A DNA stretch of 38,315 nt, taken from contig NZ_LAJX01000027.1 in the NCBI RefSeq assembly GCF_000963695.1, positions 1 through 38,315 of the forward strand, written 5' to 3'. Under the pieces are notes generated by a model, which was not told the DNA's origin, did not search any database, and worked only from the letters and a program-made list of their open reading frames with translations. Shown piece after piece: positions 5,989 through 35,412 of this stretch. The translations under genes and the position numbers were made by a program. This stretch comes from Methylocucumis oryzae. Its GTDB lineage: Bacteria > Pseudomonadota > Gammaproteobacteria > Methylococcales > Methylomonadaceae. How positions within the stretch are numbered: the first letter of the stretch is position 1; each line of letters begins with the position of its first letter.

Positions 5989-6112
5989 ATTACACACCCT
6001 AAAGCTTATACAGCTACTTAAACTACTAGATTGTATCAGGTTTTTGTTGCCTGAACGTTTGTATATTGAGATAACTCAATGTGTTTTGTTTTTTATATAA
6101 GGACTTAATAAG

Positions 6113-10811: not shown

Positions 10812-10818
10812 ATTCTCT

Positions 10819-11104: not shown

Positions 11105-11153
11105 AGTAAGCCATGAATGAATTTATCAGACATTGATTGGCTACATAGCGTGA

Positions 11154-11363: not shown

Positions 11364-11444
11364 AGTTTTGGCTCTGTTGATAATGGTTGAAAAATGGTTT
11401 TGAGAAACGCAAGCCGGTTGTTCTCGTTTTTTTCCAGCTTACTA

Positions 11445-11475
11445 AAAGTGTTGCTATGTAGCAAAGCTTTTAGGC
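11445..11475 (-). other. Hairpin at the end of the unknown gene, before the toxin-antitoxin module
   Basis: The palindrome TTGCTA-CA-TAGCAA, flanked by pairing AAAAG and CTTTT, spans the stop of the unknown gene. It could be a weak terminator (T residues fall within the right arm, not after it) or an operator for the antitoxin; no strong T tract follows. Confidence 0.4.
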
Positions 11476-11868: not shown

Positions 11869-12690
11869 TTAATGACCTCCAAGTAGTAAAGACATGTCAA
11901 GTTTTATCATTAACGGTAAGTGATCGGAAAATTGACTAGCTGGCTTTCCACGCTCGACAAGACTCTTATCAGCAATTTGGTCAATAACCACTAAAGCATC
12001 CGATTTAAAACTAGCTAGCAATGATGGTCGCAGTAAAACCTGATCTAACGTATGCCAAAAAGGGTCAATCATGGTCGGTGATTTATGAAAGTAAGTACCA
12101 GGACTGCCGATGGAATCATCACCTAACCGACTCCACATCGGATTATAAAAATATTTTCTATCCATCCCTTGCACGGTACGGCTTTGCTTTAACGCAATCT
12201 GTTTATCCATCACGGCATGAAATCCTTCGGCGCTAACCATACCTGTTTCAAATGGATTCATATTAAAATCCCCTATGACTAATGTGCGGGTATGTCCTTG
12301 CTTAAGCTCTTGCTTGTCAATCTCATTTGCTATTCTGGTTGCGATAGCCGCCTGTTCGCGCTCATCCATGCGTAATTTACTAGGCAAATGCACAGCGACG
12401 AGCAGTAACTCAATACCAAAAGGATGAGTGATTTTTCTAATCACTCCCCATGAATCATCATATACTGGCTCGAACTTATGAAAGCGAGTAAAAAAGGAAA
12501 TTTTGCTGGATTGCCTAGACGGCGGCACGATAAAGATTCTATGAGTTTTCTTATTTAGAATGGGCAATAGCTGAATATCCGATAAAACATTTTCCGCTAA
12601 AACGAATATATCAACATCATAGCAATCACATAGCCATTTAATTTCATCAACAAGCGCTTTTCTGTTGATGTTCCAAAACAACAGTTTCAT
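11869..12690 (-). CDS. Endonuclease/exonuclease/phosphatase (EEP) superfamily protein
   Basis: A 273-residue cytosolic metal-dependent phosphoesterase with the complete EEP motif series: LLFWNIN (metal/phosphate Asn), FVLAENV (metal-binding Glu), VAVHLPSK (His), VIGDFNMNP (Asp and Asn), and FSDHLPLMIKL (Asp-His pair). The substrate (DNA, RNA, phosphoinositide or other) cannot be told from sequence. It begins 18 bases after carA and is immediately followed by the unknown gene, so it is inserted within the carAB transcription unit. Its start ATG at 12690 gives MKLLFWNINRKALVDEIK, with the first motif very near the N-terminus, as in short stand-alone EEP enzymes. Confidence 0.85.
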   Translation of the reverse strand: MKLLFWNINRKALVDEIKWLCDCYDVDIFVLAENVLSDIQLLPILNKKTHRIFIVPPSRQSSKISFFTRFHKFEPVYDDSWGVIRKITHPFGIELLLVAVHLPSKLRMDEREQAAIATRIANEIDKQELKQGHTRTLVIGDFNMNPFETGMVSAEGFHAVMDKQIALKQSRTVQGMDRKYFYNPMWSRLGDDSIGSPGTYFHKSPTMIDPFWHTLDQVLLRPSLLASFKSDALVVIDQIADKSLVERGKPASQFSDHLPLMIKLDMSLLLGGH

Positions 12691-12708: not shown

Positions 12709-13827
12709 TTAAGTCATCATCGCCACAAACCCATCAAACAACCCTTCCACATCATGCGGCCCTGGGCTCGCTTCTGGATGACCTTGAAAGCTGAACGCAG
12801 GTACATCAGTGCGCTTAATACCTTGTAAACTACCGTCAAATAACGAGCGATGCGTCGCGATAAGGTTTGCGGGCAAACTGGCTTCGTTGACGGCAAAGCC
12901 ATGGTTTTGGCTACTAATCATGACGCGGCCTGTTGCAATATCAATCACGGGGTGATTCGCACCGTGATGACCAAACTTCATTTTCTCAGTTTGCGCACCG
13001 CTGGCTAAAGCCAATAATTGATGACCTAAACAAATACCAAACACAGGGATTTGTTCAGTTAACAAGGTTTTAATGGCGTTAATCGCATAATCACAAGGCT
13101 CTGGATCGCCAGGACCATTGGATAAAAAGATACCATCTGGCTTTAAGGCTAACACCTCATCGGCTGAAGTGGTTGCAGGCACCACGGTAACACGGCAACC
13201 ACGATTGACTAATAACCGTAAAATATTGCGTTTAACGCCAAAATCATAAGCGACGACATGTTTGCTTAACTGTTCGGCTGGTTTATGACCTTGTTCTAAC
13301 GACCACGTATTTTCCCGCCATTCATAACGCGTATGAGTGGTGACTTCTTTCGCTAAATCCAGCCCTTTTAAACCGGCAAAGCCATCAATCGCTTGTAGTG
13401 CTAGCCCTTGATCAAGCGTGTCGCCTGCGATAATACATCCACGTTGCGCACCTTTGTCGCGTAACAGCCGTGTTAATCGGCGTGTGTCTATATCGGCAAT
13501 CGCCACTACACGGTTAGCGCTTAAATAATCCGATAAGCTTTGTTGGCAACGCCAATTGCTAGCTAATAACGGCAAATCACGAATCACTAAGCCCGCCGCA
13601 TAGACTTGACTAGACTCATTGTCTTCTGAGTTTGTACCAACATTACCTATATGCGGATAGGTTAGCGTTACTATTTGTTTGGCATACGACGGATCACTCA
13701 ATATCTCTTGATAACCCGTCATTGCGGTATTAAATACCACTTCGCCGACACTTAAGCCGTCTATACCTATGGAGACTCCAGAAAATACAGAGCCATCTTC
13801 TAATACTAATAAAGCCGATTTAGCCAA
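12709..13827 (-). CDS. carA: Carbamoyl-phosphate synthase small subunit (glutamine amidotransferase)
   Basis: Hydrolyses glutamine and channels ammonia to CarB. The N-terminal CarA domain ([48 protein letters not shown]) and the class I glutamine amidotransferase domain ([15 protein letters not shown], catalytic Cys in [13 protein letters not shown], catalytic His and Glu in [15 protein letters not shown]) are intact. The best start is TTG at 13827 (residues [12 protein letters not shown], as in relatives), with GAGG six bases upstream; this gives 372 residues. A near-perfect hairpin lies in its leader. CarA is followed not by carB but by an EEP enzyme, an unknown protein and a toxin-antitoxin pair, carB coming 1.9 kb later. 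Confidence 0.96.
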
Positions 13828-13849
13828 ACACCACCTCAAATATGCAAAA

Positions 13850-19185: not shown

Positions 19186-19269
19186 CAAATCACGTTTTAT
19201 CATGCTTAGCAGCCGCTACGAGTATGATATTTTTTGTCAGCGGCACATTCGTTTTATAAGGAGTAAGTT

Positions 19270-19629
19270 ATGGCAGCAACAGTAGAAGCATTAAAAAAAT
19301 TGGATGGCTTTATCGCCGCAGCGTTAGTCGATTCCAGCAGCGGCATGATGCTAGAATCCATCGTAGTAGGTAGTTTCCCCATTGAAATTGCCGCAGCAGC
19401 CAATACCGAAGTATTACAGACTAAATTGAAAGCGATGGATGCGATTGATTTAGGTGACGACCATATCGAAGATATTTTAATTAGCTTAGGCACGCAATAC
19501 CATTTACTCCGTCCATTATCGTCAAACCGTGAAATCTTTATTTATGTTGCGCTCGATAGAAGCCGAGCTAACTTAGCAATGGCACGCTTAGAAACAAAAA
19601 AAATCGAAGCCAGCATTAAGCGCATTTAG
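19270..19629 (+). CDS. Roadblock/LC7-domain protein (MglB-like)
   Basis: A 119-residue roadblock/LC7 fold: ALKKLDGFIAAALVDSSSGM (first helix and strands), MLESIVVGSFPIEIAAAANT, DDHIEDILISLGTQYHLLRP, and IFIYVALDRSRANLAMARLE. Such proteins dimerise and bind or activate Ras-like GTPases. The ATG has a good AAGGAG site. It lies 84 bases after the MglA-like GTPase, so the two form an MglAB-type pair. It is shorter than Myxococcus MglB and lacks its C-terminal extension, so it may act as a scaffold or regulator rather than a full activating protein. Confidence 0.88.
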   Translation: MAATVEALKKLDGFIAAALVDSSSGMMLESIVVGSFPIEIAAAANTEVLQTKLKAMDAIDLGDDHIEDILISLGTQYHLLRPLSSNREIFIYVALDRSRANLAMARLETKKIEASIKRI

Positions 19630-19737
19630 TACTGACGCATCAATGCAATAAATAAAAACCATGCCAGATAGCAACGGCGCGGTTAGATGTAAAAGTGGCG
19701 GCGAGCATTAACTGATTAATTCTCACCAAAAACACCT

Positions 19738-19786
19738 CAGGTAAAAATGTTTGAACCGATATGAAACGTTTTTTACCTGGGTTTTT
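19738..19786 (+). terminator. Terminator after the roadblock gene
   Basis: CAGGTAAAAATGTTT (19738-19752) pairs with AAACGTTTTTTACCTG (19764-19779) with minor bulges, and is followed by GGGTTTTT. It lies about 110 bases after the roadblock stop codon. Confidence 0.65.
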
Positions 19787-19979
19787 GAAGCAGGTTTTTA
19801 CATCAATAGAACATAGCTGATAGAATACTAAAAACCTACTGTCAAACTAGGAATTTAATATCATAACGCAAAATAACCTTTAGGTTTTAAGTTATGCTAA
19901 AACTTCTTGGCTTGATGACTTGAAATGAAGGCATATCGGATATAATAACTCGCTTTTTAACAAGTCGAATCGTAGCACT

Positions 19980-20048
19980 CACCTCCCCTTTTTGAAAAAG
20001 CGGGATTGAGGGGGACATAGACTCTCCCCTCTTTTTCAAAGCGGAGTA
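19980..20048. repeat. Purine/pyrimidine-biased inverted repeat (REP-like)
   Basis: Two facing copies of a C/T-rich and G/A-rich block: CTCCCCTTTTTGAAAAAGCG followed by GGATTGAGGGGG, then CTCCCCTCTTTTTCAAAGCG. It resembles dispersed REP-type repeats of the form TCCCCCTTTTTCAAAGGGGGA known from many bacteria. The rest of the gap 19787-20143 shows nothing I can identify. Confidence 0.5.
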
Positions 20049-20143
20049 CTGAATGATTACGTCGAGTTCGGATTTTGAGTCAGCGCGGAGTAGGTTTTGC
20101 CTAGCATCTCCGTTTATTATGCTCTCTATTTTTGGCAACTAAC

Positions 20144-20743
20144 ATGAATACTCTAAATAATTCAAATTCAGACGAGTTTTTATCAACCCGTCAAGCAGCT
20201 GCAAGGCTAGGCGTAGCACTGTCAACAGTTCAGGCCTGGGTTGAAACGGGTTTATTGCCAGCATGGAAAACGGCCGGTGGTCATAGAAGAATTGCGGCAA
20301 CAGCGGTTGAGGCTTTACGCAATCGACAACAAGCTGTGCTCGGCTCAGGCCCTATACCGGGTAAGCTTAAAATTTTAGTCGTTGAAGATGAGCCAGTACA
20401 ACGCGAACTTTATCGTCAGCATTTTAGCGACTGGAATCTACCGGTCAGCTTATTAATCGCTGAAGATGGTTTCGATGGTCTAATCTATATTGGCAGACAC
20501 TCACCTGATGTCATTATTACCGATTTGGCAATGCCGGAATTAGATGGTTTTAAGATGATTAGGCGCTTAAACTCGCTAAATTCTCTCCATAAACCCACCA
20601 TCATTGTGGTAAGCGGCTTGTCTGCGCAAGAAATCGACGCCCAAGGCGGCTTACCTGATAATATCCCCGTTTACCCGAAGCCTATTCCGTTTGTTGCATT
20701 GAGATTGCTCATTGAGCATTTGGCAAAAACGCCCTGGTATTGA
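20144..20743 (+). CDS. Response regulator with N-terminal MerR/excisionase-type helix-turn-helix
   Basis: Residues ~10-60 are a MerR/excisionase-like DNA-binding domain (FLSTRQAAARLGVALSTVQA, WVETGLLPAWKTAGGHRRI); residues ~75-195 are a receiver (KILVVEDEPVQRELYRQHFS), with phosphoacceptor Asp127 in ITDLAMPELDG, the conserved Ser in VVSG and Lys in YPKP. This is the reverse of the usual receiver-then-output order. The start ATG at 20144 (MNTLNNSNSDEF) has no strong ribosome-binding site. It stands next to the GTPase/roadblock genes and a receiver-HPt protein, suggesting a phosphorelay; its DNA target is unknown. Confidence 0.88.
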   Translation: MNTLNNSNSDEFLSTRQAAARLGVALSTVQAWVETGLLPAWKTAGGHRRIAATAVEALRNRQQAVLGSGPIPGKLKILVVEDEPVQRELYRQHFSDWNLPVSLLIAEDGFDGLIYIGRHSPDVIITDLAMPELDGFKMIRRLNSLNSLHKPTIIVVSGLSAQEIDAQGGLPDNIPVYPKPIPFVALRLLIEHLAKTPWY

Positions 20744-20817: not shown

Positions 20818-22365
20818 ATGCAAAACACGTCAGCAAAAACTCGTATTTTAGTCGCTGAAGATAATCCGGCTAATCAGGCCGTGTTGCGCATGCAACTCGC
20901 TGTATTAAATTATGAAGTGGACATAGCTGACGATGGGAATAGCGCGTTAGAAAAATGGCGTTTAGGTCAATATGCATTAATTCTGGCTGATAAACACATG
21001 CCTGGCATGGATGGCTTGGAGCTGACTAAATCCATCCGAGCATTAGAGCGAGAGCGGCAATCTCATATTCCTATCATTGCTATTACTGCCGTTCAATATG
21101 CCGATGAATTAAACACCTGCCTAGCCGCCGGTATGGACGATGTGCTGATAAAGCCGATAGAAATGTCGGCGTTGCGTAGCATGCTTAAGCGTTGGTTAAC
21201 TAGTGAAACAAAGGAAATAGAACCTGTTCAAACCCAAACTAACACGCGATTAAATTCTGACCTTTTAGATATTGAGTATCTAAAAGCATCTGTTGGCATA
21301 CTTGATGAGACGCGTTTAACCGCGCTAATTGAATTGTTTGTGACAACGGCTGAGCGCGATATTGCGTCATGTTACCTTGCACTGGAACAACATCATACTC
21401 AGCCGGTTGCATTATATATGCATAAGCTGAAATCATCAGCGCGCGCTGTAGGTGCAAAACGCTTTGCTACCGTTGCGCAAACGCTAGAACTACAAGCAAA
21501 ACTCAATCATCTAGCTCCGTCATTGCAATTACTGCAAGAATTAACGGCAATACTGACTGAGATTAAAAACGCGCTAAGCAACAATCTTGCTTTCCAACCT
21601 GAAATAACTAGCGTAACTCCATCTGACACACCCACGCAAACAACGCCTGCAATAAAATTGGCGCAATTAATGGTGTGCTACGAACCTGCTATTGAACTCC
21701 CTTCTCGTCACCCGCATAGTATTACCGCTAAGCTTACTGGCTTTGAACAACCTGAATTAACTACTTATTGCGAACTCATTCAGTTAGCCAGTCATCAAGG
21801 CTTATCATCAGCTATATTTGAGATTTTATTGACTAAAGCGTTATTAGAGACCGTTAAATGGTCACGACAAGGATACCGGCTAAACTTGGAGCTATTAATA
21901 TCTGCAAATTGGCTTAACAACAGAACATTACCGGATACTATCTTTGCGACATTACAAGCGCTAGGGGTTTCTGCAAAACAACTTGTTTTCGTCGTGCTTG
22001 CCGATGAGCCGGTTGTAGATTTTGCTATTGCCTTAGAAGTTATCAATCGCTTACAACTTAAAGGCGCTGGATTTGCGTTACAAGATATGGGGATTACTGA
22101 GCTAACCCTTTGCTATTTACAGCGAATGCCTGTGCAATACCTAAAGCTCAAGTCTGATAGCATTGCAATGCTAACTCAGCATGATAATACACACGCCTTA
22201 TTGGATGTTTTAAACCGACTAAATCCTGTTCTAAGCGCCGTAGCCATATCTAATCAACAGCAATTCATGGACTGCTTAAAGCTAAACTGCCAATTTGTGC
22301 AAGGAACATTCATCGCTCCATCCATGGACAGCCCGCAACTGCTTGCTTGGTTAGCGCAGCATTAG
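20818..22365 (+). CDS. Receiver-HPt-degenerate EAL protein
   Basis: A 515-residue signalling protein. Residues ~9-128 are a receiver (RILVAEDNPANQAVLRMQLA; phosphoacceptor Asp58 in LILADKHMPGMDG; Lys in DVLIKPIE). Residues ~150-245 are an HPt domain with phosphoacceptor His202 in LYMHKLKSSARAVGA. Residues ~275-513 resemble an EAL domain in layout (MVCYEPAIEL, LNLELLISANWLN, GFALQDMGITELTLCYLQRM, PVQYLKLK), but the EAL motif and the acidic DDFG metal site are lost, so it is very unlikely to hydrolyse cyclic di-GMP and may only bind a partner or nucleotide. It could pass phosphate to or from the upstream HTH-receiver regulator. The palindromic repeat begins at its stop codon. Confidence 0.87.
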   Translation: MQNTSAKTRILVAEDNPANQAVLRMQLAVLNYEVDIADDGNSALEKWRLGQYALILADKHMPGMDGLELTKSIRALERERQSHIPIIAITAVQYADELNTCLAAGMDDVLIKPIEMSALRSMLKRWLTSETKEIEPVQTQTNTRLNSDLLDIEYLKASVGILDETRLTALIELFVTTAERDIASCYLALEQHHTQPVALYMHKLKSSARAVGAKRFATVAQTLELQAKLNHLAPSLQLLQELTAILTEIKNALSNNLAFQPEITSVTPSDTPTQTTPAIKLAQLMVCYEPAIELPSRHPHSITAKLTGFEQPELTTYCELIQLASHQGLSSAIFEILLTKALLETVKWSRQGYRLNLELLISANWLNNRTLPDTIFATLQALGVSAKQLVFVVLADEPVVDFAIALEVINRLQLKGAGFALQDMGITELTLCYLQRMPVQYLKLKSDSIAMLTQHDNTHALLDVLNRLNPVLSAVAISNQQQFMDCLKLNCQFVQGTFIAPSMDSPQLLAWLAQH

Positions 22366-22580: not shown

Positions 22581-24679
22581 TTAGCGTATTCTATTTTCAA
22601 ATACAATAACGCTTTTAAGCGATACCCGATAACTAGCTGTGACTGGGGTTTGCTGCTCTACAGGCACAATATCAAAAGGGCTAGCTTTAGCTGTATCAAC
22701 TGCTAAACACCACTGCTTGCCTGAAATCTCGGGCAGTGCAATGGTTTTCTCGCCATCATCCATATTTAACACCACATGAAGATCAGGCTCATCTTCATCA
22801 AGCCCCGCTAAAGTAAAAATGAGCGTTCGGTTGTCTGAATCATACCAATTCAATTCCCGCTCAGGCGTTGCATCATGCCAAGTAATATCTTTTAAGGTTT
22901 TGCCTTCGTCGGGCATACCGGTTAGAAAGCGTCTACGCATTAATGTAGGGTGACGTTTACGCAGCGCTATCATTAATTGTACGAAACGAAAAATATCTGC
23001 GTTTGCTTCCACCATTTGCCAATTAAGCCAAGATAACTCATTGTCTTGGCAATAACCGTTATTATTGCCGCGTTGGGTATGCAAAAACTCGTCACCCGCT
23101 AGCAACATAGGCACGCCTTGACTTAATAATAAAATGGTAAATACATTTTTGGCTAATTGTCTGCGTAAACGTAGCGTTTCTTGATGCTCTGTTTCACCTT
23201 CAAAACCGCAATTAAAACTTAAGTTGTTATTACAACCGTCGCGATTATTCTCGCCATTCGCTTCGTTATGTTTAAACGTTGTAACTAAATAAATCGTATA
23301 GCGTAAAACCGTCATGACAAGTAACGAAATTAATACCGCTAATTGGCAAGCGGTCTTGTGATTGATATAAATCACTGCTACCGCAGATACGAGTGGCGAC
23401 TTCTCGGATAATCCCTTTATCGCCTCGAACAAAACGACGGATAATGTCACGATAACGACCATTCCATTCGCCCCAGCGATAGCCTGGAAAACTACCCACT
23501 TGATACAACCCGGCCGCATCCCACGCCTCAGCGATTAACTTGGTTTTTTGTAATTGCTCAGACAACTCTATACCCCAAAGCACCGGTGGATTATGCAACA
23601 CTTCGCCGCCCTCGCCCCTGGCTAACGCACTAGCCAAGTCAAATCTAAAGCCATCAACATGCATTTCTCTGACCCAGTATTCCAGGCAACTAATAATAAA
23701 ACGTGATACCAGCGGGTGATTAGCGTTTACCGTATTGCCACAGCCGGTAAAAATCTAAAAATATGGATTTGTCATGATGATCTAATAAGTAAAAAATTTC
23801 GCCAATAATACCTTTGAAATTAATTAAGGGTCCTGTTGCCCCTGCCTCGGCAGTGTGGTTAAAAACCACATCTAAAATGATAGCAATCCCCGCTTTATGC
23901 AAAGCTTTAACTAAATCTCGAAACTCACGAATATGCGTGCCTTGTTCAGGGGTAACGCAAAAACCTGGATGAGGACTGAAATAACTGTGCGTACTATAGC
24001 CCCAATAATTTTTTAAGCCTAAATCTGCGGTATGGCTAGGAACATCTTGCTCATCAAACGCCATAATAGGCAGTAACTCAACGTGAGTAATGCCTAATGA
24101 TTTTAAATAAGGAATTTTTTCGATTAAACCGGCAAATGTACCCGGATTTTTGACTTGCGCAGACGGATGCCGGGTAAAACCACCTACGTGTAATTCATAA
24201 ATAATGGCTTTTTCGCTACGGATATTAAGCAACTGGTCCCCTTCCCAGTCGTAGCTATCATCAACAACCATCGCGCGCATCGCTGTTTTGCCATTATCAC
24301 CAGGCAAACAGGCAGCACCTCTATGCCAACGCTTATTGCTTACAGCGCGCGCATAAGGGTCTAGCAAATGTTTTTCCTTATCGAAACGCAAACCCGTTTC
24401 CTTAGGCTGGTTTAAGCCGTCTAAGCGCCAGCAGTACCAAGTCCCCACAGGTAAATCAACGACATAAACATGCCAAGAAAAGAAGGTTCGATGAGTTTGC
24501 TTATTAAGTTTAATAACCTGGAACGGTTGCTCGCATTCTGAGCTAGTGAATAATAACAATTCCACAGCCGTCGCATGATGGCTAAAAATCGAAAAATTAA
24601 CGCCATGCCCATTGAGTTTGACACCCAAAGGATAAGGCGAACCAGGTTTAAGTTTATAGTGTGACCTTTGCATTTCCAT
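22581..24679 (-). CDS. glgX: Glycogen debranching enzyme GlgX (isoamylase-type, two frameshifts)
   Basis: GH13 debranching enzyme that hydrolyses alpha-1,6 branches of glycogen. It has an N-terminal CBM48-like domain (PYPLGVKLNGHGVNFSIFSH), then the GH13 barrel: IILDVVFNHTAEAG, nucleophile Asp in VDGFRFDLASAL, acid/base Glu in LIAEAWDAAGLYQVG, and the transition-state-stabilising His-Asp of VTCHDGFTLYDL. Two extra bases (A runs 23749-23753 and 23274-23276 on the plus strand) break the frame at LDFTGCGNTVNANHP and at the segment just before KHNEANGENNRDG. Repaired length is about 698 residues, normal for GlgX. It is divergent from the DUF4912/GH57 genes and surely belongs with them in alpha-glucan metabolism. 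Confidence 0.93.
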
Positions 24680-25096: not shown

Positions 25097-25906
25097 GTGA
25101 AAAAATTTTCCCGCTTTGGGTATGATACCCAAATTACTTTGTCATCGGAAGAACTCTTTGAAATAAGTCAAGAAATTGCTTTCAATTACTCACCAAAGAG
25201 AATTGGTTTGTTTTCTAGTTTTGACGAACATAAAACATTATCGAATCAAAACAAAATACCCAATAAAACGTTTAGCAGCCAATATTCTAATACCCGCTTG
25301 ACCATGCAAGAAATTTTAAATATCAATCAAGAAGTTAGATTAAATTACACACCTGACGCTGATGAATCGCTGCCTGACGTATTGCTACTTCCAGTCGATC
25401 CTTTTCATATTTATGCGTATTGGTCAGTCATGACAACACAAGCACCTCAAGCTCACCCCTTACATTTACGGGTATATTGGCATCCTGATGGGACATTAAC
25501 AACGGCAAAACACATTTGGTTTGATATACCTTTAAACACCGAAAAAAATAGACAACAACTGCGTGTGCCTTTGTCGGGCGAATATTACTCTGCGGCAGTC
25601 GGTTCACTTGACGCCAATGCCCATTTTATTCAGCTTGCGCACTCAAACACGGTACAAGTACCTCATATCAAACCGGTATCTAATGAAAGCTTCATAGATG
25701 ACTCACGCCCTGTTGATGAAAAGGTCTACGATGAATGCATAATGATTAATTATTTACCGCTTACCGACAGCCATGAGCGCAACGTTCAATTATTTTTATC
25801 AGCTCTAGCACAGTTTAAGAGCGTAAATGATGATGGCATTTATGCGGTTCCCCCTATAACATCATCTTATAAATCCAACAGTTTGGCATCAGCGCTAATA
25901 AGGTAG
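25097..25906 (+). CDS. DUF4912 domain protein
   Basis: The central part LLLPVDPFHIYAYWSVMTTQ and QLRVPLSGEYYSAAVGSLDA match DUF4912, a beta-rich domain usually encoded next to GH57 branching enzymes, as here. The N-terminal ~90 residues contain two related segments (LSSEELFEISQEIAFNYSPK and LTMQEILNINQEVRLNYTPD), an internal duplication that I read as a docking motif. No signal peptide or membrane segment. It begins with GTG and ends six bases before the GH57 gene, so the two are cotranscribed. Role unknown; probably in glycogen synthesis or carbohydrate binding. Confidence 0.82.
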   Translation: MKKFSRFGYDTQITLSSEELFEISQEIAFNYSPKRIGLFSSFDEHKTLSNQNKIPNKTFSSQYSNTRLTMQEILNINQEVRLNYTPDADESLPDVLLLPVDPFHIYAYWSVMTTQAPQAHPLHLRVYWHPDGTLTTAKHIWFDIPLNTEKNRQQLRVPLSGEYYSAAVGSLDANAHFIQLAHSNTVQVPHIKPVSNESFIDDSRPVDEKVYDECIMINYLPLTDSHERNVQLFLSALAQFKSVNDDGIYAVPPITSSYKSNSLASALIR

Positions 25907-25912
25907 CCATCA

Positions 25913-27515
25913 ATGAGCCAAGGCCAACTCTGTCTGGTGCTTCATGCCCATTTGCCTTATGTTAGGCATCCTGAATATGACAGTTTTTTTGAAGAAAACT
26001 GGTTATTTGAGGCAATGACAGAATGTTATATTCCGTTACTCGGTGTTTTAAACCGTTTACAACACGAGCGGGTGCGTTATCGTCTGACGTTATCGCTATC
26101 GCCGACACTTATTACGATGTGGCGCGATGAATTACTGCAGCAACGTTATTTACGCTATTTACATAACTTAATCGAGTTAAGCGATAAAGAAATTCGCAGA
26201 ACTCGACATGACCGTGCGCATCAAGCGTTAGCACGGTTGTATCGGCGTTATTATCAGCACACATTAACCTTGTATCGAGAGCAATATGCATGCGATTTGC
26301 TTAATGCGTTCTTATCGCACCAAAAAATGGGACAGTTAGAATTGCTCACAACGGCTGCAACGCATGGTTTTTTACCATTGCTTAGCGCCAGTGAAACCGC
26401 AGTAAGAAATCAAATTGATGTGGGTATTGACACATTTAACCAACATGTTGGTTTTGTTCCTAAAGGCTTTTGGTTGCCTGAATGCGGTTATTATCCTGGC
26501 TTAGAACGTTTTTTTAAGCGATGCTGGCATAGAATACTTTTTCACCGATAGCCATAGTTTTACTTATGCCAGAACGCCCGCTAAAGACGGCGTTTACGCC
26601 CCTTTGCGCTGTCCGAATGGTGTTGTTGCGTTTGCACGTGACCCTGAATCCTCTCGGCAAGTATGGAGCGCTCAAGAAGGCTATCCAGGCGATGAAGATT
26701 ATCGCGAATATTACAGCGATATTGGTTTTGAACTGGAGTTAGATTATTTAGCACCTTACTTATTGGCGGATAAAACCCGCGTCAATACGGGTATTAAATA
26801 CCGACGCATTACCGGTCATGAATGCGCTAAAGAACTCTATGCACCTAGAAAAGCCTATACCAAAGCCGTGTTACATAGCGCCGATTTTATTAAGCAACGC
26901 CAACAGCAATGCCAACGCTTAGGTAACGAAACGACCAAACCACCTTTAATTGTCGCACCTTATGATGCCGAATTATTTGGGCATTGGTGGTTTGAAGGGC
27001 CCGTGTGGTTAGAACATGTCTTAAGAAATGCTGCAAAACCGGATAGTTCGATTAGCACCGTGACGCCTAGCGATTATTTAACTCAGCATTCGGATTTACA
27101 AACCTCTATCCCTTCGGCTTCTACTTGGGGTGAACACGGTTATTTTAGTTATTGGATTAATGACAGCAATGACTGGATTTACCCTCATTTATACCAAGCC
27201 AGTGCAAAAATGGAAAAATTTGTGCTTGAATTACAAGGATTAAGTTTAACGCCATTACAAGAGCGAGCATTAAATCAAGCGGTGCGCTCCATATTATTAG
27301 CTCAGGCGTCGGATTGGCCGTTTATCATGAAATCGGGCACCACTAAGGATTACGCAACTAAGCGAGTCACTGATCACTTAGCCAGATTTAATTATCTCTA
27401 TGAGAGCGTACGCAGTGGTCGTATTAACGAACGTTACTTGACCGCCTTAGAAATCATGGATAACATTTTTCCAGCGCTTGATTTTCGAGATTATTGCTCT
27501 CTCGCCAGCGATTAG
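25913..27515 (+). CDS. GH57 1,4-alpha-glucan branching enzyme (DUF1957 type, one frameshift)
   Basis: Glycoside hydrolase family 57 branching enzyme, making alpha-1,6 branches in glycogen. Motifs: LCLVLHAHLPYVRHPE, GFWLPECGYYPGLER (catalytic Glu), FAYDPE-like FARDPESSRQVWS, IVAPYDAELFGHWWFEGP (catalytic Asp), and STWGEHGYFSYWINDSNDW. An extra T in the run 26509-26515 breaks the frame at LERFLSDAGIEYFFTDSHSF; repair gives about 533 residues, as usual. GH57 branching enzymes are cytosolic and unrelated to GH13 GlgB. It lies between DUF4912 and the CBM21-EEP gene on the same strand. Confidence 0.93.
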
Positions 27516-27627
27516 GTTAAATAATTTAAAATCATAAACTTACCTTATGCTGAGTCACGTTGTTTCAGCGTTATTTCACACTGCGCCGTTTGACGTTAAT
27601 GGCCAAACAGCTACTTTAGGAGTCGCC

Positions 27628-29157
27628 ATGCCCGAAATTCAACTGTTATATGTCATTAACGTGATGAATCGTAAAAAAAGCTATGTACAACAAGAGCTGA
27701 CGTTTTATCTATTGATTGAAAATTTAGGCTTTCATAAGTCAGTCGATATTTTATGGAGCGGAGAAGATGGTGTTCAGCAAACATTAACGGCGACGTTCCA
27801 TTGTAGTAAAAATGCTACGCACGAGTTTTGGTGCGCTAAGACGCTGATAAAATTAGATAATGAGCAATCTTTGGCAGGTAATATCGAATTTGTCTGCCGC
27901 TATCGCGTAAACAACACAGACTACATTGCTAACGATAATGGCAAACCTTATCGTAGCGAAGCCGATTCTGGCCTCAGGCTGTTTGTTGACACCCCTGTTT
28001 TTCATATCGATTACACGCCTACAATTGCCAATAAACAAAATTTCTTACCCATCACGGTTGCGGTGTCTAGCACGTTACCGATTAACCAAGTCACCGTGCA
28101 TTGGACCACCGATAATTGGCTGACTACGCGTAAAACCCAATGCCTGTTTAAACACCGTTACTGGGATAAAGAGCATAACAGTAATGCGCGCAATCCTAAT
28201 CAATACCACGTATCTATTTGGCATACTTGGCTTAGATTAGGACAGACATTTCGGATTCATTACTGTATATCGGCAGAAACCACTCAAGAAGAGCTGGTTT
28301 ATTGGGATAATAATGACGGAGCTAATTACACATTAGCGCATGAGCCACTTAAAGTCATGATATTGAATTTACATTGTTATCAAGAAGACAACCAGGACGC
28401 TAAATTAACCCAAATAGCCAAAGCCATTGATGAACTAGACGTCGATGTAGTGTGTTTTCAAGAAGTCGCCGAGCCTTGGAATAACGGCGATGGCGATTGG
28501 GAGCAAAATGCCGCTAAATTGATTAATCAACGCTTACCCACACCTTACCATGTTGCTAATGATTTTTCTCATTTGGGCTTTGAGCGTTACCGTGAGGGCG
28601 TTGCCCTACTCAGTCGGTACCCCATTATTCATAGCGAAGCGCGTTATGTCTCAGATAGCGAGGACACCTATAATATCCACTCACGTAAAGTCGTGATGGC
28701 ACAAATTGATATACCTCATATCGGTTTTGTTAATTTCTTCACCGCCCATTTAAGTTGGCCAGAAAATGGCTTTGCTAACCAATTTAACCGGTTAAATGAC
28801 TGGGCAAGCGCGTTACACCAAGCGCCTGTCGTAGCGTCGCTGCTGTGTGGAGATTTTAATATTGCGCAAACATCAGATAGCTACCAGCAGGTAATTGAGC
28901 AATATCAGTATATCGATCAATATGCCCAAGCTAATACAGACAATCCATTACCTTATGGGCCTATCACTCATCCTTACCGACAAATAAACCCAGCCACAGA
29001 CTATAGAATTGATTACATTTTTGCCCATCCATTAAGCGAGCTTGCCGCAACGCAAGCTTATAAAGTATTTACTGAACGTGATTATGGACGCGTGTCCGAT
29101 CATTACGGTTATTTTTTCGTTTTTGAACCCTTAAGCCTGAAAGTCAAAAAGTGCTAG
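27628..29157 (+). CDS. Two CBM21-like domains fused to an EEP phosphoesterase
   Basis: Residues ~5-115 and ~140-245 are two beta-sandwich domains that look like family 21 starch/glycogen-binding modules (LTFYLLIENLGFHKSVDILW; IEFVCRYRVNN; and for the second VTVHWTTDNWLTTRKT and the hallmark VYWDNNDGANY). The C-terminal ~260 residues are an EEP catalytic domain: VMILNLHCY (Asn), VVCFQEVAEPW (Glu), FTAHLSWP (His), LLCGDFNI (Asp, Asn) and RVSDHYGYFFVFEP (Asp-His). The combination suggests a phosphoesterase targeted to glycogen granules. I prefer the ATG at 27628 with GGAG five bases upstream; a longer frame from 27547 has no site. Cotranscribed with the GH57 enzyme. Confidence 0.82.
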   Translation: MPEIQLLYVINVMNRKKSYVQQELTFYLLIENLGFHKSVDILWSGEDGVQQTLTATFHCSKNATHEFWCAKTLIKLDNEQSLAGNIEFVCRYRVNNTDYIANDNGKPYRSEADSGLRLFVDTPVFHIDYTPTIANKQNFLPITVAVSSTLPINQVTVHWTTDNWLTTRKTQCLFKHRYWDKEHNSNARNPNQYHVSIWHTWLRLGQTFRIHYCISAETTQEELVYWDNNDGANYTLAHEPLKVMILNLHCYQEDNQDAKLTQIAKAIDELDVDVVCFQEVAEPWNNGDGDWEQNAAKLINQRLPTPYHVANDFSHLGFERYREGVALLSRYPIIHSEARYVSDSEDTYNIHSRKVVMAQIDIPHIGFVNFFTAHLSWPENGFANQFNRLNDWASALHQAPVVASLLCGDFNIAQTSDSYQQVIEQYQYIDQYAQANTDNPLPYGPITHPYRQINPATDYRIDYIFAHPLSELAATQAYKVFTERDYGRVSDHYGYFFVFEPLSLKVKKC

Positions 29158-29240
29158 TAATGGCGATTTAGAGTCACCTAAAAACTAAGTACTCATAGCA
29201 AAACGGTATGGTGCTGTTTAGGGAATTATAGGGAGTAAGC

Positions 29241-30837
29241 ATGCAACCGGCAGAACATTATGCAACACCAGTGCACGGCCAATTAGGTGGTTTTTTCTCA
29301 CGTAGCAACGACTTAAAAGAAAGCTTTTCCGTGCGCTGGGGTAAAATTGATTTCCATGTCCATCATGGCATACAAGCCAATGTTAAAGTTATTTTACGCG
29401 TTTACCGCTCAAACGATATTATCGAGACTTATATCATCGATACCGACGCCTATGAAGAGCAATGGAATTACCATAAACGCAGTACGCGAGACTTCTTTAT
29501 TCTGCCAAACTCAGCCCAATTAGGGCCTATTCTGTGTATTAAATTCAGTTACTTAATCCACTTAAACGAACACTCGATACCATCACAGCATGAGTATTTG
29601 TTTATGGATTACCAACAAATTCAAAATGAGCATCCGCAATCACGCAATATTAACAGCGATTGGACCTCGATTAATCGGTATAAAGCCTATGAGTTGAATG
29701 CAGGCCAGTTGCAAGCAGACGTCGATTGGATGAACCACCATTATGAATCGTTAAAATTAACGCCTAAATTTACTAAAGGGCAACAATATCACCCTTACCA
29801 TCCTAAGCGTTATCTCCACGAGCATATTGATAAAGTGATACGCAGCAAACACGCCCATCCTGACCGACTATGTACAATAAAAGTAAGCGTTGATTGCATC
29901 GATGACACCGATTTTGTCAGCCATTTAATCCATGCGCATCACCAAGGCGTACTAGTTCAGTGCATTGTCGATTGGCGAAAAATGACGCTTACCAATAGCC
30001 AAAATTATGCTCGTTTAAAATATGCCAAAGTTGAATTAATCGGTGTATTTTGCACGCCTAAGCATCATCTCATTGAAGTATTACCTGATATGCATACTAA
30101 ATTTGTCATCTTTAACCATGAAGATTGCATTTTAGGCTCATTTAACATCACATTTGACCGCTGGTGGGCTAATTGGGAATCAGGCATGACATTTCATTCC
30201 GAAGGGATGTGCAGGCTTCTGGATAATATTTTTCAAAGCCAACGCGGTGGTGTGATTCAGCGTTATGGCATAGACCCATTAAGCCACTTCAATGTGTTAT
30301 ACACGTTTTGGTCGACATGTCATGTTAAATGGCAAATTGTACCGACCGCACCATGCGATTTTGGCAGAAATTCATCGCGCCAAACATTCGATTAAACTCG
30401 CTTTATTTTTAATCGGTGAATTACGAGGCGATCATCATGACAGTGTCATTGATGCGTTAATCCATGCCCATAGACGAGGTGTTTATGTACATATTTTGTT
30501 TAACGGTCACTTAGCACGCCAAGGCATGGTGGGCGAACCTAGACCGATGGCTGAAGAATTAAAGCGCCCGCTATTACCGGCTGTACAATGGCTAAAAGAT
30601 AGCGGTATTCGTGTAGGTTTGTTATATGGTCAAGACGACCATGTTGTCCCCTATTCTCCCCTGCATTCTAAATACTGTGTTATAGACGATAATATTGTGT
30701 TAGAAGGCAGTTTTAATTGGTATAACACATCGGTGTTTTCGCACGATTTACTCGTCATTGCCCATAATCGCAAAACAGCCGAACCTTATTTGTTTGAATT
30801 TGAGCAGATGCAGCGGTTATTTAGGATTTATTATTGA
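29241..30837 (+). CDS. Phospholipase D-family protein with two HKD motifs (one frameshift)
   Basis: Two HKD phosphodiesterase half-sites: MHTKFVIFNHEDCILGSFNI and LHSKYCVIDDNIVLEGSFNW, both with the His and Lys spaced as in the PLD superfamily. The N-terminal ~150 residues (FFSRSNDLKESFSVRWGKID, NVKVILRVYRSNDIIETYII) are beta-rich and unrecognised; a divergent carbohydrate-binding module is possible given the neighbour. An extra T in the run 30306-30309 splits the second half; repair joins SHFNVLYT to FGRHVMLNGKLYR and gives about 531 residues. There is no signal peptide. The start has GGGAG six bases upstream. Substrate unknown: lipids, nucleic acids or a phosphorylated polysaccharide. Confidence 0.85.
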
Positions 30838-30966
30838 TGACATGCTCGTGTGAAACCAAGTGAATAGCTCATGTGGTTTAATCAATTAACCATGAGAAAT
30901 TAGTGGCTATCGACTTTAGCTAACACTATCGATATGATGATGCTTAGCAAGTATCCATGAATTTTT

Positions 30967-31980
30967 GTGTTCAACTACCCTGCTTCTCTCATGTCACGTT
31001 GGCTTAAATCGTTTTCAATCACGTTGTTTAGCATCGTTGCTTTCGCCACATTTATCAGTGTTAATGGCGTGCAATATGTATTCGCTTATCTAGGTAATGA
31101 ATTTGCTAATCCGTTACCTGACTTATCAGAATTTCAGATTACACCCGAACGCCATTTTGACGAATGTACGAGTCAGCCTATCACGGTAATGACCTATAAC
31201 GTCGAATATGGTTCTCAGTTCATAGAAGACATGGCGGCTACGTTTCGTCATGGCGATACTGGCGGCGCATTACCGTGGTCAACACGCGCCCCCGAAATAC
31301 GCGAACGCATTGCTAGTTATGCGCCACATTTAATTGGCTTACAAGAAACACACACCAACGAAGATATTCATAACATCGTGTCGCCCAACGATTATACGCT
31401 AGTTAGCTATCATCGCGGTACCTTCCAATACGGTGATGCCGCTTTATTGTTTAGAAAAGATAAATTCAACCTATTGACCAGTGGTCAGTTATGGTTGGGA
31501 CCGCAGCCAGATTTACCCATGAGTTTTGGCTTTAAACGACTGGCTATGGTTAGATACGCCAACTGGGCATTATTAAAAGAAAAAAACTCACACTTTCAAT
31601 TTTATTTGTTAATACGCACTTTTGATAACGCGTCTGCGAATAAAGAACCTAGCGCCGACTTATTCAGGGAACGTATTAGCGCTTTAGCAAGAGGCATCCC
31701 TATTATTGTCACCGGCGATTTTAACAGCACCGCAACAACTGAGCGCTACCAAAAAATTTTAGGTAACGAACCACAATTATTGTTTAATGCCTTCTCACTG
31801 AGCCATGCCGTCGCAACTATGCCTGAGTTACACCCTGACCAGCGCATAGACCATATTCTGGCAGGCGGCCCTTGCCAAATCAGTTCAGACTTATGGTTTA
31901 TCGACACCCGCCCACTAGCTAATGGCCAGCGCATGTCTGACCATGATGCCATTATTGCTAGATTACAGTTTAAGCCCTAG
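30967..31980 (+). CDS. Membrane-anchored EEP phosphoesterase (compensating indels)
   Basis: The N-terminus has one hydrophobic segment (FSITLFSIVAFATFISV), an anchor or uncleaved signal, so the enzyme is probably periplasmic. The EEP motifs follow: VMTYNVEYGS, LIGLQETHTNED, IIVTGDFNST and MSDHDAIIARL. The His motif NTHFD is masked: a missing T in the run 31600-31603 and an extra T at 31620-31623 shift the frame for about 20 bases; correcting them gives FQFLFVNTHFDNASANKE. The present start is GTG at 30967; an extra T just after ATG 30957 may hide a longer start, MNFVFNYPASLM. It is 129 bases after the PLD gene on the same strand. Confidence 0.8.
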   Translation: MFNYPASLMSRWLKSFSITLFSIVAFATFISVNGVQYVFAYLGNEFANPLPDLSEFQITPERHFDECTSQPITVMTYNVEYGSQFIEDMAATFRHGDTGGALPWSTRAPEIRERIASYAPHLIGLQETHTNEDIHNIVSPNDYTLVSYHRGTFQYGDAALLFRKDKFNLLTSGQLWLGPQPDLPMSFGFKRLAMVRYANWALLKEKNSHFQFYLLIRTFDNASANKEPSADLFRERISALARGIPIIVTGDFNSTATTERYQKILGNEPQLLFNAFSLSHAVATMPELHPDQRIDHILAGGPCQISSDLWFIDTRPLANGQRMSDHDAIIARLQFKP

Positions 31981-32078: not shown

Positions 32079-33677
32079 TTAACTAGTAAGCATTCTTGCT
32101 AACGGCGTATTAGCCTCTATACATAAACGCGCATCGCTATCGCCGTTTTGACATAATGCAATCACTTCACGTAGCTGTTTATTAACCTCGCCATGCTCGA
32201 TAATCGCCGCATTCATCAAATCTGCAATCTCTTTTTCTAACAAGCTAAGCGCTTGATGCAGACCTTTTTTGCAAACCTTTTAGCGCGCTTTTCCTCAATG
32301 ACGGCTGCATTTTCTTCAAGATAAAATAAGGCGTTATCCACGTTAACGCGATTAGCAAGCTGCTATGCACTGCAAAATCAACCCCTAGATAAGGTGTGTT
32401 CATCACATTACTATGGTAATAGCCAATAAACACTTGGCTACCTACCAGGCCATCGCCGACAGCGGTAATATAATTTCACAGATACGCATGGTTTTTAAAA
32501 AAACGCGTTGTAGCGCATTACCAGGATTAGCTAAAGCTTGTCTGACTGCCAATTCGGTTTGGCTTTGAATAATTTTGGCGGCTTTATCGCGTATCACAGC
32601 CAAGCGGGTTTTAAAAGGCTGAATGGGTATGCCTTGATGGTCGATATTAAGAATTAATTCATCCAGCGTATCGTTAAAACGGGTTTGCGCCCAATCATCC
32701 CATAGCGTTAAGCCATTAGGTGCTGCATGAGTGATTAAATCCGCCGCATGTTGTGCATAATAAACGGCTGTTTGTTGTAAGGGCCAAGAGAAGCCTTGTT
32801 GCAACTGAGTACAGGCTTCTTGCCATTGATGTTGCCACAAACGCGGTAATTGCTGGCAGGTTTGTTCGCTGCCTAATGTCTGTAATTGTGAGTTTAGCTT
32901 TTGCTTAAGCTCTTGTTTGCGCAATTGTTGATTGCGGCATTCTAATTGCTCCAATACATGCGTTGTCGCAAGTGAGCCTATCGTTTCCTCTAATTTACAA
33001 AACTCATCATGTGCTCTATCGTCCAAGCAAACCGTTTTAAAAATTATCGGTTCAAAAAAACCTGCTTTATGTAACTGCTGACGAAAATCGTCGTGTTGCT
33101 CAATTAAGCCCCTATCCCACTGATTTAATACGAATAGCCAAGCATGTCTCGCCCCTTCTGCCAACAATAAACGCCAGGCTTTTTCATCGCGGTAACGCTC
33201 AGGACTGACCACATAAACCAGCACATCAATATGCGGTAACCATTGCAACACTAATTGCTTATTACTTTGTTCAGTCGTATCAAAATCTGGCATATCCATC
33301 CAGATAATGTTTTTCTTGGCTTCTTCTTCGTGTTGGGCGATTTTGATTTGCGTGATAGGCAGTTGTTCGGGTAGATTTTGAATCGCAACGCTTTGGTGAT
33401 GGTACAACGTAACCTCTCGCGACGTAGGGCGCTCTATACCGGTTCTAGCAATAGCTTTACCCGCTAAGCGATTTAATAAGCTACTTTTACCTACGCCGCT
33501 GCCACCTAAAAAAGCAACAATTAATGGCCGTGCGCCATTATTAAACAGAGTTTCAGGTGTTCTTAAATCGGTTTCGATTAACTGCTTAGCCGTCTCTTGG
33601 TTAATCCACCCTAGGGCTGCCGCGTGTTCGGCCCATGTCTTAGCCTTTTCCACCAATTCAGAGTATGCGTAAGCCAT
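32079..33677 (-). CDS. Large GTPase, downstream member of a pair (two frameshifts)
   Basis: GTPase with P-loop LGGSGVGKSSLLNRLAGKA, a G3-like MDMPDFDTTEQ, and G4 in LNQWDRG. A long, Gln/Leu-rich helical part follows. The C-terminus has two hydrophobic segments (MRICEIILPLSAMAW and FAVHSSLLIALTWITPYFIL), so it may be membrane-associated, as in dynamin-like or ribosome-associated GTPase families. A missing G near 32445 and an extra base in the run 32265-32270 break the tail; repair adds LPLSAMAWVGSQVFIGYYHS and a helical end, making about 532 residues. The gene starts inside the end of the next-listed GTPase gene (20-bp overlap), so both are translated together. No specific function is recognised. 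Confidence 0.75.
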
Positions 33678-35412
33678 GTCGTTTCTCAGTTAAGTGTTTC
33701 TCAGCAAGCTGTTGCTCAAACGCTTTTAATTGTTCAGTAGAAATATTGAAATGCATAGTAGCGGGTATTCGCTCCGGCAAGCTCAGCAGTTTTTTCGCCA
33801 TGTGTTCTATAAAAAGCTTTTGTTTAACGTGATGAAGTTGTTGTTGTTTTAATTGCATTTCTAGTTTATGAATAAACCCACCTATCGCGCTTTCGGTTAA
33901 CAATGACGTCACCGTCAACATAGCAGGTGCAATGACTAAATCATGTACCCCTATACCTCCTGTATGTAACGTTAATGCAATCACTGCGGCATCCGCAGTC
34001 ACCCGGGTCGCTCTCAAGCTATTTAAGACAACGGGTTGCTCTTGTAATTTATCGTACAATTGATGTGCCGTTTTTTCTACATCACGCTGAAATTCAATAT
34101 GATAATTCCTAGCAGCAAGACTAAACTCGGTTAATAAATCGACTCGAATACTACGCACTAAGCTACTAAATTCCTTACTCCAAAAACCGGTCTTAGTGCG
34201 TTCAGCATTGTCCAAGATGTTATCTTGCAACTGAATCAACAAATGCTCCGCCAACCGATTGAGTAACACAACTTCCTGACTGGTATCGGCTAAATGCGCG
34301 GGCTTCTTAGCATATTTCATTAATTGCTTAATAGGCCACACCAATACTTTCCTAGCACCGGTTAATAGCCCTGCTAGGCCAGGAATTTCAAGCAATGTTA
34401 ATAACTCAGCTAACGCTTGCTGAAAGGTTTCATAATGCTGCGGGTGGTCTAAAAATTCCCGCTGATAGCTTTGCAAGGCTTGTTTTACCAAACCATCAAT
34501 CAGTTGTTGCCACTCAGAGAGCGCCTGCAGCTCCTCGTTAACAGGTTCAAGCCAACCTGGGGAATATTTTTGTACTAAGCTTAGCTCATATTGATTATGC
34601 TTACGCGCATTGATGTTAACGCTTAAGCGCGTCAACAAAGACCGGTTAATCTCCGGCCAAATAGGCAATCCACCCAGTTTTTGATAACTCAACAAAATCG
34701 TTTCAGGATAGGCATCACTGCGCACTTGTCGCCATTTTTCCTGTAAAGAACGCAATAAAATGTCTTCTGAGCCTTCGCTGATTTTATTTAAACAAATAAA
34801 CGTAGGCTGGTGTAAGTCTTCTAATAGCGCCATCATGTCCCAAACGCTTTGATCAGCATATTTTTCTTTACTAACAACCAAAATTACTACATCAGCTAGC
34901 GCTATCGTTCTTAACACGCCCTCACGATACGTCTGCGAATCTATGGAATCAAAATCAGGCGTATCCCATAACACACAAGCCGGTAAATAAGGTGAATGCC
35001 CTGCCACATCAGTTAAGGCATAACAATCAAACCGATGTTTAGGCAAAGCCGATACCTCTAAACACTGAAACCTGCCGAAAAAGCGCTGTAAACTTTGATT
35101 ATCCGCCTTGTTCACAAGATGGCAAAATCCTTGCGCATGGACAGTATAACCGGCCAATGGGCTGACGCCGGCCATATCACTATTCAATAGCACATTCACT
35201 ACCGAACTTTTCCCAACTTGGGTAGGCCCAATAATGGCAATTTGTAACACCGGTTGATTTTTTACTTGCGTTAACTCACCTTTGCGGATAAATGCTTCAG
35301 TAAGATGAAGCTGATCTATTCGTTGTACGCACCGCTGACGTCCAGCCTCATCGACTTGCTGAGCTAATAACGCTTGGTAACGCTGTTTTAATAATTGGAT
35401 AAATTCCAGCAT
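33658..35412 (-). CDS. Large GTPase, upstream member of a pair
   Basis: A 584-residue GTPase: P-loop IIGPTQVGKSSVVNVLLNSD, G3 WDTPDFDSIDSQT, and G4 CLNKISEGS. The G domain (residues ~55-265) is followed by a long helical region and, near residues 465-520, hydrophobic stretches (ADAAVIALTLHTGGIGVHDL, VIAPAMLTVTSLL), a layout reminiscent of bacterial dynamin-like proteins that remodel or contact membranes. No frameshift. It overlaps the next GTPase gene by 20 bases and shares the DTPDFD-type G3 with it, so the pair probably forms a heteromer. The exact family is unclear to me. Confidence 0.8.
   Translation of the reverse strand: MLEFIQLLKQRYQALLAQQVDEAGRQRCVQRIDQLHLTEAFIRKGELTQVKNQPVLQIAIIGPTQVGKSSVVNVLLNSDMAGVSPLAGYTVHAQGFCHLVNKADNQSLQRFFGRFQCLEVSALPKHRFDCYALTDVAGHSPYLPACVLWDTPDFDSIDSQTYREGVLRTIALADVVILVVSKEKYADQSVWDMMALLEDLHQPTFICLNKISEGSEDILLRSLQEKWRQVRSDAYPETILLSYQKLGGLPIWPEINRSLLTRLSVNINARKHNQYELSLVQKYSPGWLEPVNEELQALSEWQQLIDGLVKQALQSYQREFLDHPQHYETFQQALAELLTLLEIPGLAGLLTGARKVLVWPIKQLMKYAKKPAHLADTSQEVVLLNRLAEHLLIQLQDNILDNAERTKTGFWSKEFSSLVRSIRVDLLTEFSLAARNYHIEFQRDVEKTAHQLYDKLQEQPVVLNSLRATRVTADAAVIALTLHTGGIGVHDLVIAPAMLTVTSLLTESAIGGFIHKLEMQLKQQQLHHVKQKLFIEHMAKKLLSLPERIPATMHFNISTEQLKAFEQQLAEKHLTEKRHGLRIL

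Follow-up and report, generated by a model that had tools for sequence, protein, structure and literature searches.

The stretch of DNA analysed here, referred to as the window, comprises 38,315 nucleotides of Methylocucumis oryzae (contig NZ_LAJX01000027.1) and encodes a protein in which two starch-binding modules of family CBM21 precede an EEP catalytic domain (the CBM21-EEP protein), followed by a phospholipase D-like (PLD-like) protein with two HKD motifs. This gene pair is real and conserved, nearly restricted among the sampled genomes to the methanotroph family of the window, which we take to be the Methylomonadaceae of GTDB, and apparently undescribed. The link of the pair to glycogen is strong. 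We propose, with a probability of roughly 45%, that both proteins form a cytoplasmic accessory phosphoesterase pair on glycogen, most likely stripping phosphate which would hinder branching. By anatomy, the CBM21-EEP protein may represent a bacterial equivalent, with an unrelated fold, of laforin, the glycogen phosphatase of humans. Glycogen phosphate and its removal matter because failed removal underlies Lafora disease, and the gene pair offers a direct test, in culturable methanotrophs, of glucan phosphatase and glycogen phosphate in bacteria.

Domains of the CBM21-EEP protein and its PLD-like partner

CBM21 (PF03370; 58.0 bits over two stretches, cut-off 28.9) and EEP (PF03372; 64.8 bits, cut-off 24.5) are the only domains above the curated cut-offs in the CBM21-EEP protein, and the motif YWDNNDGANY immediately precedes the EEP domain. 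This agrees with a preliminary description of the window, which had recognized this hallmark directly ahead of an intact catalytic domain and had taken the N-terminal domains for carbohydrate-binding modules; the latter was borne out by the Pfam profile and by profiles built from each module (A3 for the second and A4 for the first, 17 rows each). Scored in isolation, the second module reached 44 bits and the first 27.3 bits, slightly below the cut-off. The second module was found to be closest to PPP1R3C, followed by PPP1R3B (E 1.5e-7), and the first to the starch-binding domain of Rhizopus glucoamylase (Table 1), with PPP1R3 proteins matched at 1.3e-4 to 7.6e-4. Moreover, the two modules resemble each other (hhalign E 5.5e-7). 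An AF2 model of the whole protein was of good quality (pLDDT 88.5, pTM 0.83). The identity of the modules as CBM21 rests on the profiles, without an independent fold match, because the best 50 Foldseek matches of the model were all EEP structures.

The ligand residues W47, Y94, N96 and N101 of the Rhizopus oryzae starch-binding domain, as given in parts of PMC3398936, were placed by eye in the profile alignments at W50, W100, N102 and N107 of the first module and at W164, W226, N228 and N233 of the second, with Y83 finding no placement. Across an alignment of the whole protein with 41 rows (A1), this site is kept in the second module almost without exception (41, 40, 39 and 40 of 41 rows, respectively), including all four residues in the window. 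In the first module it is kept in 39, 37, 39 and 39 of 41 rows, and the window itself carries Q, I, N and P, i.e., three of the four residues are lost. Further losses in the first module occur in L089 (three residues) as well as in L070, L073, L078 and L082 (one each).

In the EEP domain, N247, E279, H374, D409, N411 and D462 are invariant in all 41 rows, and S490-D491-H492 are present in each of the 40 rows long enough to reach them; we presume that these N, E, H, D/N, D and SDH residues fulfill the catalytic roles. By profile, the closest solved structure is 3teb (E 1.1e-32), followed by 3g6s (6.6e-4) and 4ruw (0.009), while PDE12, ANGEL2, 4c1r (titled mannosyl-6-phosphatase, 0.054), 3mpr, nocturnin and sphingomyelinase range between 0.03 and 0.2. 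By fold, 3teb (E 1.1e-17), 4ruw, neutral sphingomyelinase, Bt3783 (4c1r, at rank 5) and TDP2 ranked on top. Judged by its residues, this EEP enzyme is intact, and the structural comparisons leave its substrate class undecided.

The PLD-like protein features two HxK...GSFN halves in its own alignment (A2), the first of which has an N at the D position. With a mean column identity of 84% (A2) it is more conserved than the CBM21-EEP protein with 63% (A1). Its N-terminal 150 residues, approximately, form a beta-rich domain (pLDDT about 85) within an otherwise poor model (pLDDT 64.5 as a whole). No match of this domain to the PDB was obtained by sequence up to E 10, and among Pfam families four were matched by one of 23 members each (best E 0.039). 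A further carbohydrate-binding module was considered for this domain and discarded, as hhalign to both CBM21 profiles gave a probability of about 1% or less. The closest solved relatives of the PLD-like protein by profile are MitoPLD (4.5e-5) and Nuc (9e-4). The protein of the Methylovulum-like relative L072 (9377-10969) matched DrmC in NCBIfam (2.4e-9, 37.1 bits), not reaching the cut-off of 133, and DrmC (3.2e-9, 34.8 bits) and MkoC (1.9e-8) among the PADLOC defence models. No signal peptide was apparent by eye in the alignments of either protein.

Gene neighbourhood and distribution of the pair

The surroundings of the gene were compared across 60 related loci. The relatives are gammaproteobacterial methanotrophs, with most records bearing the label Methylobacter, Methylovulum, Methyloglobulus, Methylicorpusculum, Crenothrix or Methylococcaceae. 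In the 53 loci with sufficient room upstream (7 of 60 had none), the closest same-strand glycogen gene at a distance of up to 1.5 kb was GH57 in 29 cases and glgA in 15 cases, leaving nine without such a gene; all 15 loci with glgA upstream also hold glgB. Downstream, 52 loci offered room (8 of 60 did not), and 46 of them hold a PLD-like gene no more than 1 kb away, the exceptions being L050, L054, L060, L078, L085 and L086. One or more glycogen genes (GH57, DUF4912, GlgA, GlgB, GlgC-like or GlgX) were located on 48 of the 60 loci. Accordingly, the recurrence of this neighbourhood in other genomes, on which the earlier interpretation depended, was established for the glycogen genes and the PLD-like gene around CBM21-EEP.

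Two arrangements were observed. In one, the genes for DUF4912, GH57, CBM21-EEP and PLD follow each other, frequently with glgX or glgA/glgB/glgC close by. In the other, glgB, glgA, CBM21-EEP and PLD are consecutive and run divergently to genes which, from their length and place, we presume to be PGM-like and glgC-like. In both, the pair lies at most two genes away from a branching enzyme, although the enzyme kinds are unrelated (GH57 versus GH13). On a tree calculated from A1, the GH57 and glgA contexts are clustered, requiring two changes each versus shuffled means of 9.1 and 9.2, on a weakly supported backbone in which 15 of 38 inner branches were left open and the bootstrap had not stabilised. 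The cluster is also present in the genome of Methylobacter tundripaludum SV96 (L048), for which the accessible parts of PMC10030640 report that two genes for branching enzymes respond to temperature in opposite directions; neither endonuclease nor phospholipase occurs as a word in that text. Apart from this, an open frame of 1042 amino acids in genome G027 was considered as a fusion of PLD and CBM21-EEP and ruled out by its coordinates, since the two genes lie in different frames.

Among 201 genomes of the family, 129 carry CBM21-EEP; 133 were matched, four of which were dropped, one for containing the EEP part only (G150) and three by E-value (G152, 2.8e-36; G166, 1.2e-16; G123, 6.3e-5). At least two of the 129 hold partial genes (G133, G145). 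The PLD-like gene was found in 132 of the 201 genomes (E 1e-30). Both genes occur together in 126 genomes, CBM21-EEP alone in three, PLD alone in six and neither in 66; the corresponding Fisher p of 7e-42 takes no account of shared ancestry and is not readable as a probability. In the three genomes with CBM21-EEP alone (G032, G076 and G180, the last being locus L020), the downstream side of the gene faces a contig end, so PLD may merely be absent from these assemblies. Moreover, G089, G094, G159 and G195 retained both genes although 17 kb to 1.6 Mb of a shared contig separate the two. The synthase gene glgA was present in 189 of the 201 genomes and, by eye, in 125 of the 129 with CBM21-EEP.

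Beyond the family, the genes were rarely met in the genomes sampled. A draw of 151 genomes from the order yielded 61 matches, consisting of 60 family genomes with full or near-full length and a single EEP-only match in another family. CBM21 was found in one of 398 Pseudomonadota genomes drawn, namely the window's own, no other member of the family being among the genomes listed, and in none of 14 prokaryote controls. In a draw of 274 genomes from the class, the PLD profile was covered end to end only in the own genome, in two pieces, with short and weak HKD matches in eight others. The genes also occur in records whose labels read SAR324 (L078), which is another phylum, Rhodoferax (L069) and beta proteobacterium (L077), the latter two of which may be mis-binned methanotroph contigs. 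The SAR324-labelled metagenome-assembled genome holds CBM21-EEP at 10061-11560 and PLD at 19208-20389 with about 7.6 kb in between; its PLD shows the lowest identity of the 60 loci (62-65%) and runs past the contig end. Either transfer or mis-binning may account for this record.

Proposed function and competing explanations

The favoured explanation, phosphate removal from glycogen, builds on the domains, the intact EEP residues, the gene order and the co-inheritance with PLD. The starch-binding modules would dock the CBM21-EEP protein on glycogen, where the metal-dependent EEP domain would hydrolyse phosphoesters of the polymer. The most likely substrates would be phosphate monoesters which enter during synthesis and would hinder the branching enzyme encoded nearby. 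The PLD-like partner would work on the same target. Perhaps it opens phosphodiesters first, leaving the remaining monoester to the EEP domain, which is a guess that fits the family of the partner. This explanation is preferred since either arrangement places the pair close to a gene for a branching enzyme, since an alpha-glucan module joined to a phosphate-cleaving domain corresponds to the plan of laforin and SEX4, and since branching enzymes, including prokaryotic ones, were reported to have a lower affinity in vitro when the glucan carries phosphate (parts of PMC13011383). By analogy, a glycan phosphomonoester as EEP substrate would have a precedent in Bt3783. Slightly more doubtful is the wider notion of a phosphate-editing system of the methanotrophs' own, in which a glucan phosphatase of the CBM21-EEP type, evolved in convergence with laforin and SEX4, would be combined with a dedicated PLD-type phosphodiesterase. 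If phosphate editing takes place, bacterial glycogen would carry functionally relevant phosphoesters.

Several known proteins share parts of this design. In laforin (CBM20 with a dual-specificity phosphatase, DSP, domain) and SEX4 (DSP with a carbohydrate-binding module), a glucan-binding module and a phosphate-releasing domain are likewise united in one protein that is linked to glycogen or starch. Both rely on a cysteine DSP, whereas the bacterial protein features a metal-dependent EEP domain of predicted activity, two CBM21 modules and the pairing with a PLD-like protein. On anatomical grounds, the CBM21-EEP protein resembles a laforin-type enzyme but, since no DSP domain was found at the Pfam cut-offs, is not a laforin. 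PPP1R3B and PPP1R3C, to which the second module is closest, share CBM21 with a motif of the WDNNxGxNY type. PPP1R3 proteins have no catalytic domain of their own and recruit PP1, while here an enzyme is fused instead. The starch-binding domain of Rhizopus oryzae (2djm/2v8m), closest to the first module, belongs to a secreted hydrolase, unlike the phosphoesterase without apparent signal peptide described here; equivalents of its residues W47, Y94, N96, N101 and K34 (PMC3398936) exist in most relatives. The EEP fold is shared with 3TEB from Leptotrichia buccalis and with Bt3783 (4C1R), the matched chains of which lack a carbohydrate-binding module; the entry name of 4C1R denotes a glycan-phosphate monoesterase, and the similarity of this structure to the CBM21-EEP protein is distant. 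The HKD motifs of the partner recur in PLD6/MitoPLD (Zucchini), the Nuc endonuclease, DrmC and bacterial PLD, and the partner differs from these in its two HKD halves together with the beta-rich N-terminal domain.

The available portions of PMC2714694 (2009), in which the carbohydrate-binding module of SEX4 is labelled CBM21, stated that both domains were joined in no bacterial or archaeal protein and judged a bacterial glucan phosphatase unlikely. The covered text of the review PMC11046441 mentions neither CBM21 nor glucan phosphatase. In the titles and beginnings of abstracts listed by searches of an open-access library, which mostly excludes subscription papers, the CBM21-EEP architecture was nowhere described, in line with the remark in the preliminary description that its author knew of no such system.

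A number of observations weigh against phosphate removal from glycogen. Phosphorylation of bacterial glycogen was treated as open in 2025 (parts of PMC13011383). The title of 3teb, the closest EEP structure, names no substrate, and neutral sphingomyelinase (nSMase), TDP2 and nocturnin score about equal to 4c1r. The PLD-like protein is closer to MitoPLD, Nuc and DrmC than to any sugar phosphodiesterase among the matches. Eight of the 60 loci hold no glycogen gene although one of their flanks spans 5 kb or more, and four more loci without one are short. Furthermore, glgA occurs in 64 of the 72 genomes without CBM21-EEP, so the gene is not needed for glycogen and the pair is to be regarded as an accessory rather than a requirement.

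The resemblance of the partner to MitoPLD, Nuc, DrmC of DISARM and MkoC would also suit a glycogen-tethered nuclease pair, in which CBM21 parks an EEP nuclease and a PLD-type nuclease for nucleic-acid turnover or defence, possibly guarding the polymer. The weak matches of the EEP domain to exonuclease III models (0.0015) and its similarity to TDP2 folds point in the same direction, and the DrmC and MkoC matches, the one positive hint at a guarding role, favour it as well, although they are at superfamily level and, for DrmC, far under the NCBIfam cut-off. Nevertheless, the CBM21-EEP protein matched none of the PADLOC defence models, and among nine proteins encoded in or next to the cluster only the PLD-like protein and, weakly, a neighbour in L040 (VakA, 3.2e-4) did. 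The recurring neighbours are glycogen genes, the pair is retained over most of the family, and the names PLD and EEP span many substrates, which makes nucleases on glycogen unlikely. If the modules served to bring catalysis to glycogen with a protein or a small-molecule phosphoester (a signal) as target instead of the polymer, the closeness of the second module to the targeting modules of PPP1R3C and PPP1R3B would be explained, and the window contains a response-regulator/Hpt/EAL gene at 20818-22365. This regulator gene is non-recurrent, with one partial match among the related loci (L010), and we know of no EEP enzyme acting as protein phosphatase; such a scaffold or regulator is therefore considered improbable.

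Methanotrophs possess dense internal membranes, and a sphingomyelinase-like EEP enzyme and a PLD could attack phospholipids wherever glycogen is associated with a membrane. The folds match nSMase (8j2f, 5uvg) and phospholipase D (7e0m, from a poor model), which is consistent with this, but these matches are at superfamily level and both proteins lack a membrane anchor by eye, so that a lipid-glycogen interface appears quite unlikely. Finally, the frame-broken genes of the window might suggest that unrelated genes were juxtaposed in a poor assembly. For CBM21-EEP, PLD and the glycogen genes this is refuted by the same gene order in dozens of other genomes, and since curated cut-offs were exceeded and the 60 loci show recurrence, chance is excluded to the point of a very slight residual likelihood; it holds only for the gene at 30967-31980. 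The earlier proposal of a glycogen-targeted, phosphoester-cleaving system is well supported as an anatomical statement, apart from this last gene, encoding a membrane-type EEP protein, which drops out.

Condition of the window's copy and further genes

The window corresponds to contig C190 of an assembly of 4.58 Mb in 389 contigs with a completeness of 88.6%. The genes of the cluster and their strands (Table 1) were as placed in the preliminary description, including the second EEP protein and the opposite orientation of glgX. The start of CBM21-EEP had to be moved from 27547 to 27628, because the methionine at the latter position opens most relatives.

Table 1. Glycogen-associated cluster of the window with positions, strands and supporting evidence
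Feature	Position	Strand	Evidence
glgX debranching enzyme, divergent, three pieces from frame breaks	22581-24679	-	whole L072 relative reaches the TIGR02100 cut-off
DUF4912 protein, before GH57	25097-25906	+	PF16258, 50 bits; same place before GH57 in relatives
GH57 alpha-1,4-glucan branching enzyme, frame break	25913-27515 (ORFs 25913-26551 / 26604-27515)	+	PF03065, PF09210; whole in L072
CBM21-CBM21-EEP protein, 509 aa, core gene	27628-29154	+	Pfam cut-offs exceeded; 41-row alignment A1; AF2 model
First CBM21 module, residues 1-118, Rhizopus-SBD-like	27628-27981	+	profile A4 vs 2djm, E 3.5e-7
Second CBM21 module, residues 119-238, PPP1R3-like with intact binding motif	27982-28341	+	profile A3 vs PPP1R3C, E 6.1e-10
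EEP catalytic domain	28345-29154	+	all catalytic residues kept; nearest solved structure 3teb
Two-HKD PLD-like partner, frame break near 30292-30395	29241-30837 (ORFs 29241-30395 / 30292-30837)	+	two PLDc_2 stretches
Membrane-type EEP protein	30967-31980	+	second EEP match

The genes for GH57, PLD-like and glgX are split into two to three frames in the window and uninterrupted in L072, while CBM21-EEP is an open frame. Judged by the ends of Pfam domains cut between adjoining open reading frames (ORFs) within the window alone, ftsH (4059-5024 / 5032-5997) and carB (7592-10093 / 10098-10850) are apparently split as well. As these housekeeping genes look similarly broken, errors in base calling or assembly are a likelier cause than decay of the glycogen cluster in this genome. 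The branching enzyme contains both a GH57 and a BE_C domain; its L072 relative scores below the narrow NCBIfam equivalog cut-offs for Thermus and Thermococcales (e.g., 329.7 versus 920).

The membrane-type EEP gene was rejected as a member of the system and is taken as a bystander, since it does not recur beside the cluster: no match at E 1e-8 was obtained on the 60 related loci. Its relatives occur in 18 of 151 family genomes including the own one, 11 of these 18 belonging to the genus of the window. Of the other 17 genomes, compared by eye, 11 carry it and CBM21-EEP on different contigs, five lack CBM21-EEP, and in G089 it lies 45 kb from PLD. The protein would face another compartment, because it opens with a hydrophobic segment (by eye).

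A third EEP-domain gene (11869-12690, minus strand; 29.1 bits, cut-off 24.5) occupies a seemingly unusual place between a carA-like gene (12709-13839) and carB (10850-7592). Besides, the own genome encodes an EEP-only paralogue with 37% identity (G000:C42:17212-18039; L002, L114), which is also present in many family genomes. On contig C42 it adjoins a CBM_2-bearing PSD/cytochrome protein, and in genome G103 (L115, 5410-7208) a PPK2 polyphosphate kinase gene. In the four stretches scanned out of six, the neighbours of the paralogue were varied and gave no clue to a substrate, including the cytochrome/PSD protein, a histidine kinase, PPK2, an M20 peptidase, T2SSE and a ThiI-like protein. Downstream of the cluster, two adjoining GTPase genes (32442-35412, minus strand) overlap by 20 bases and show MMR_HSR1 and weak dynamin matches.

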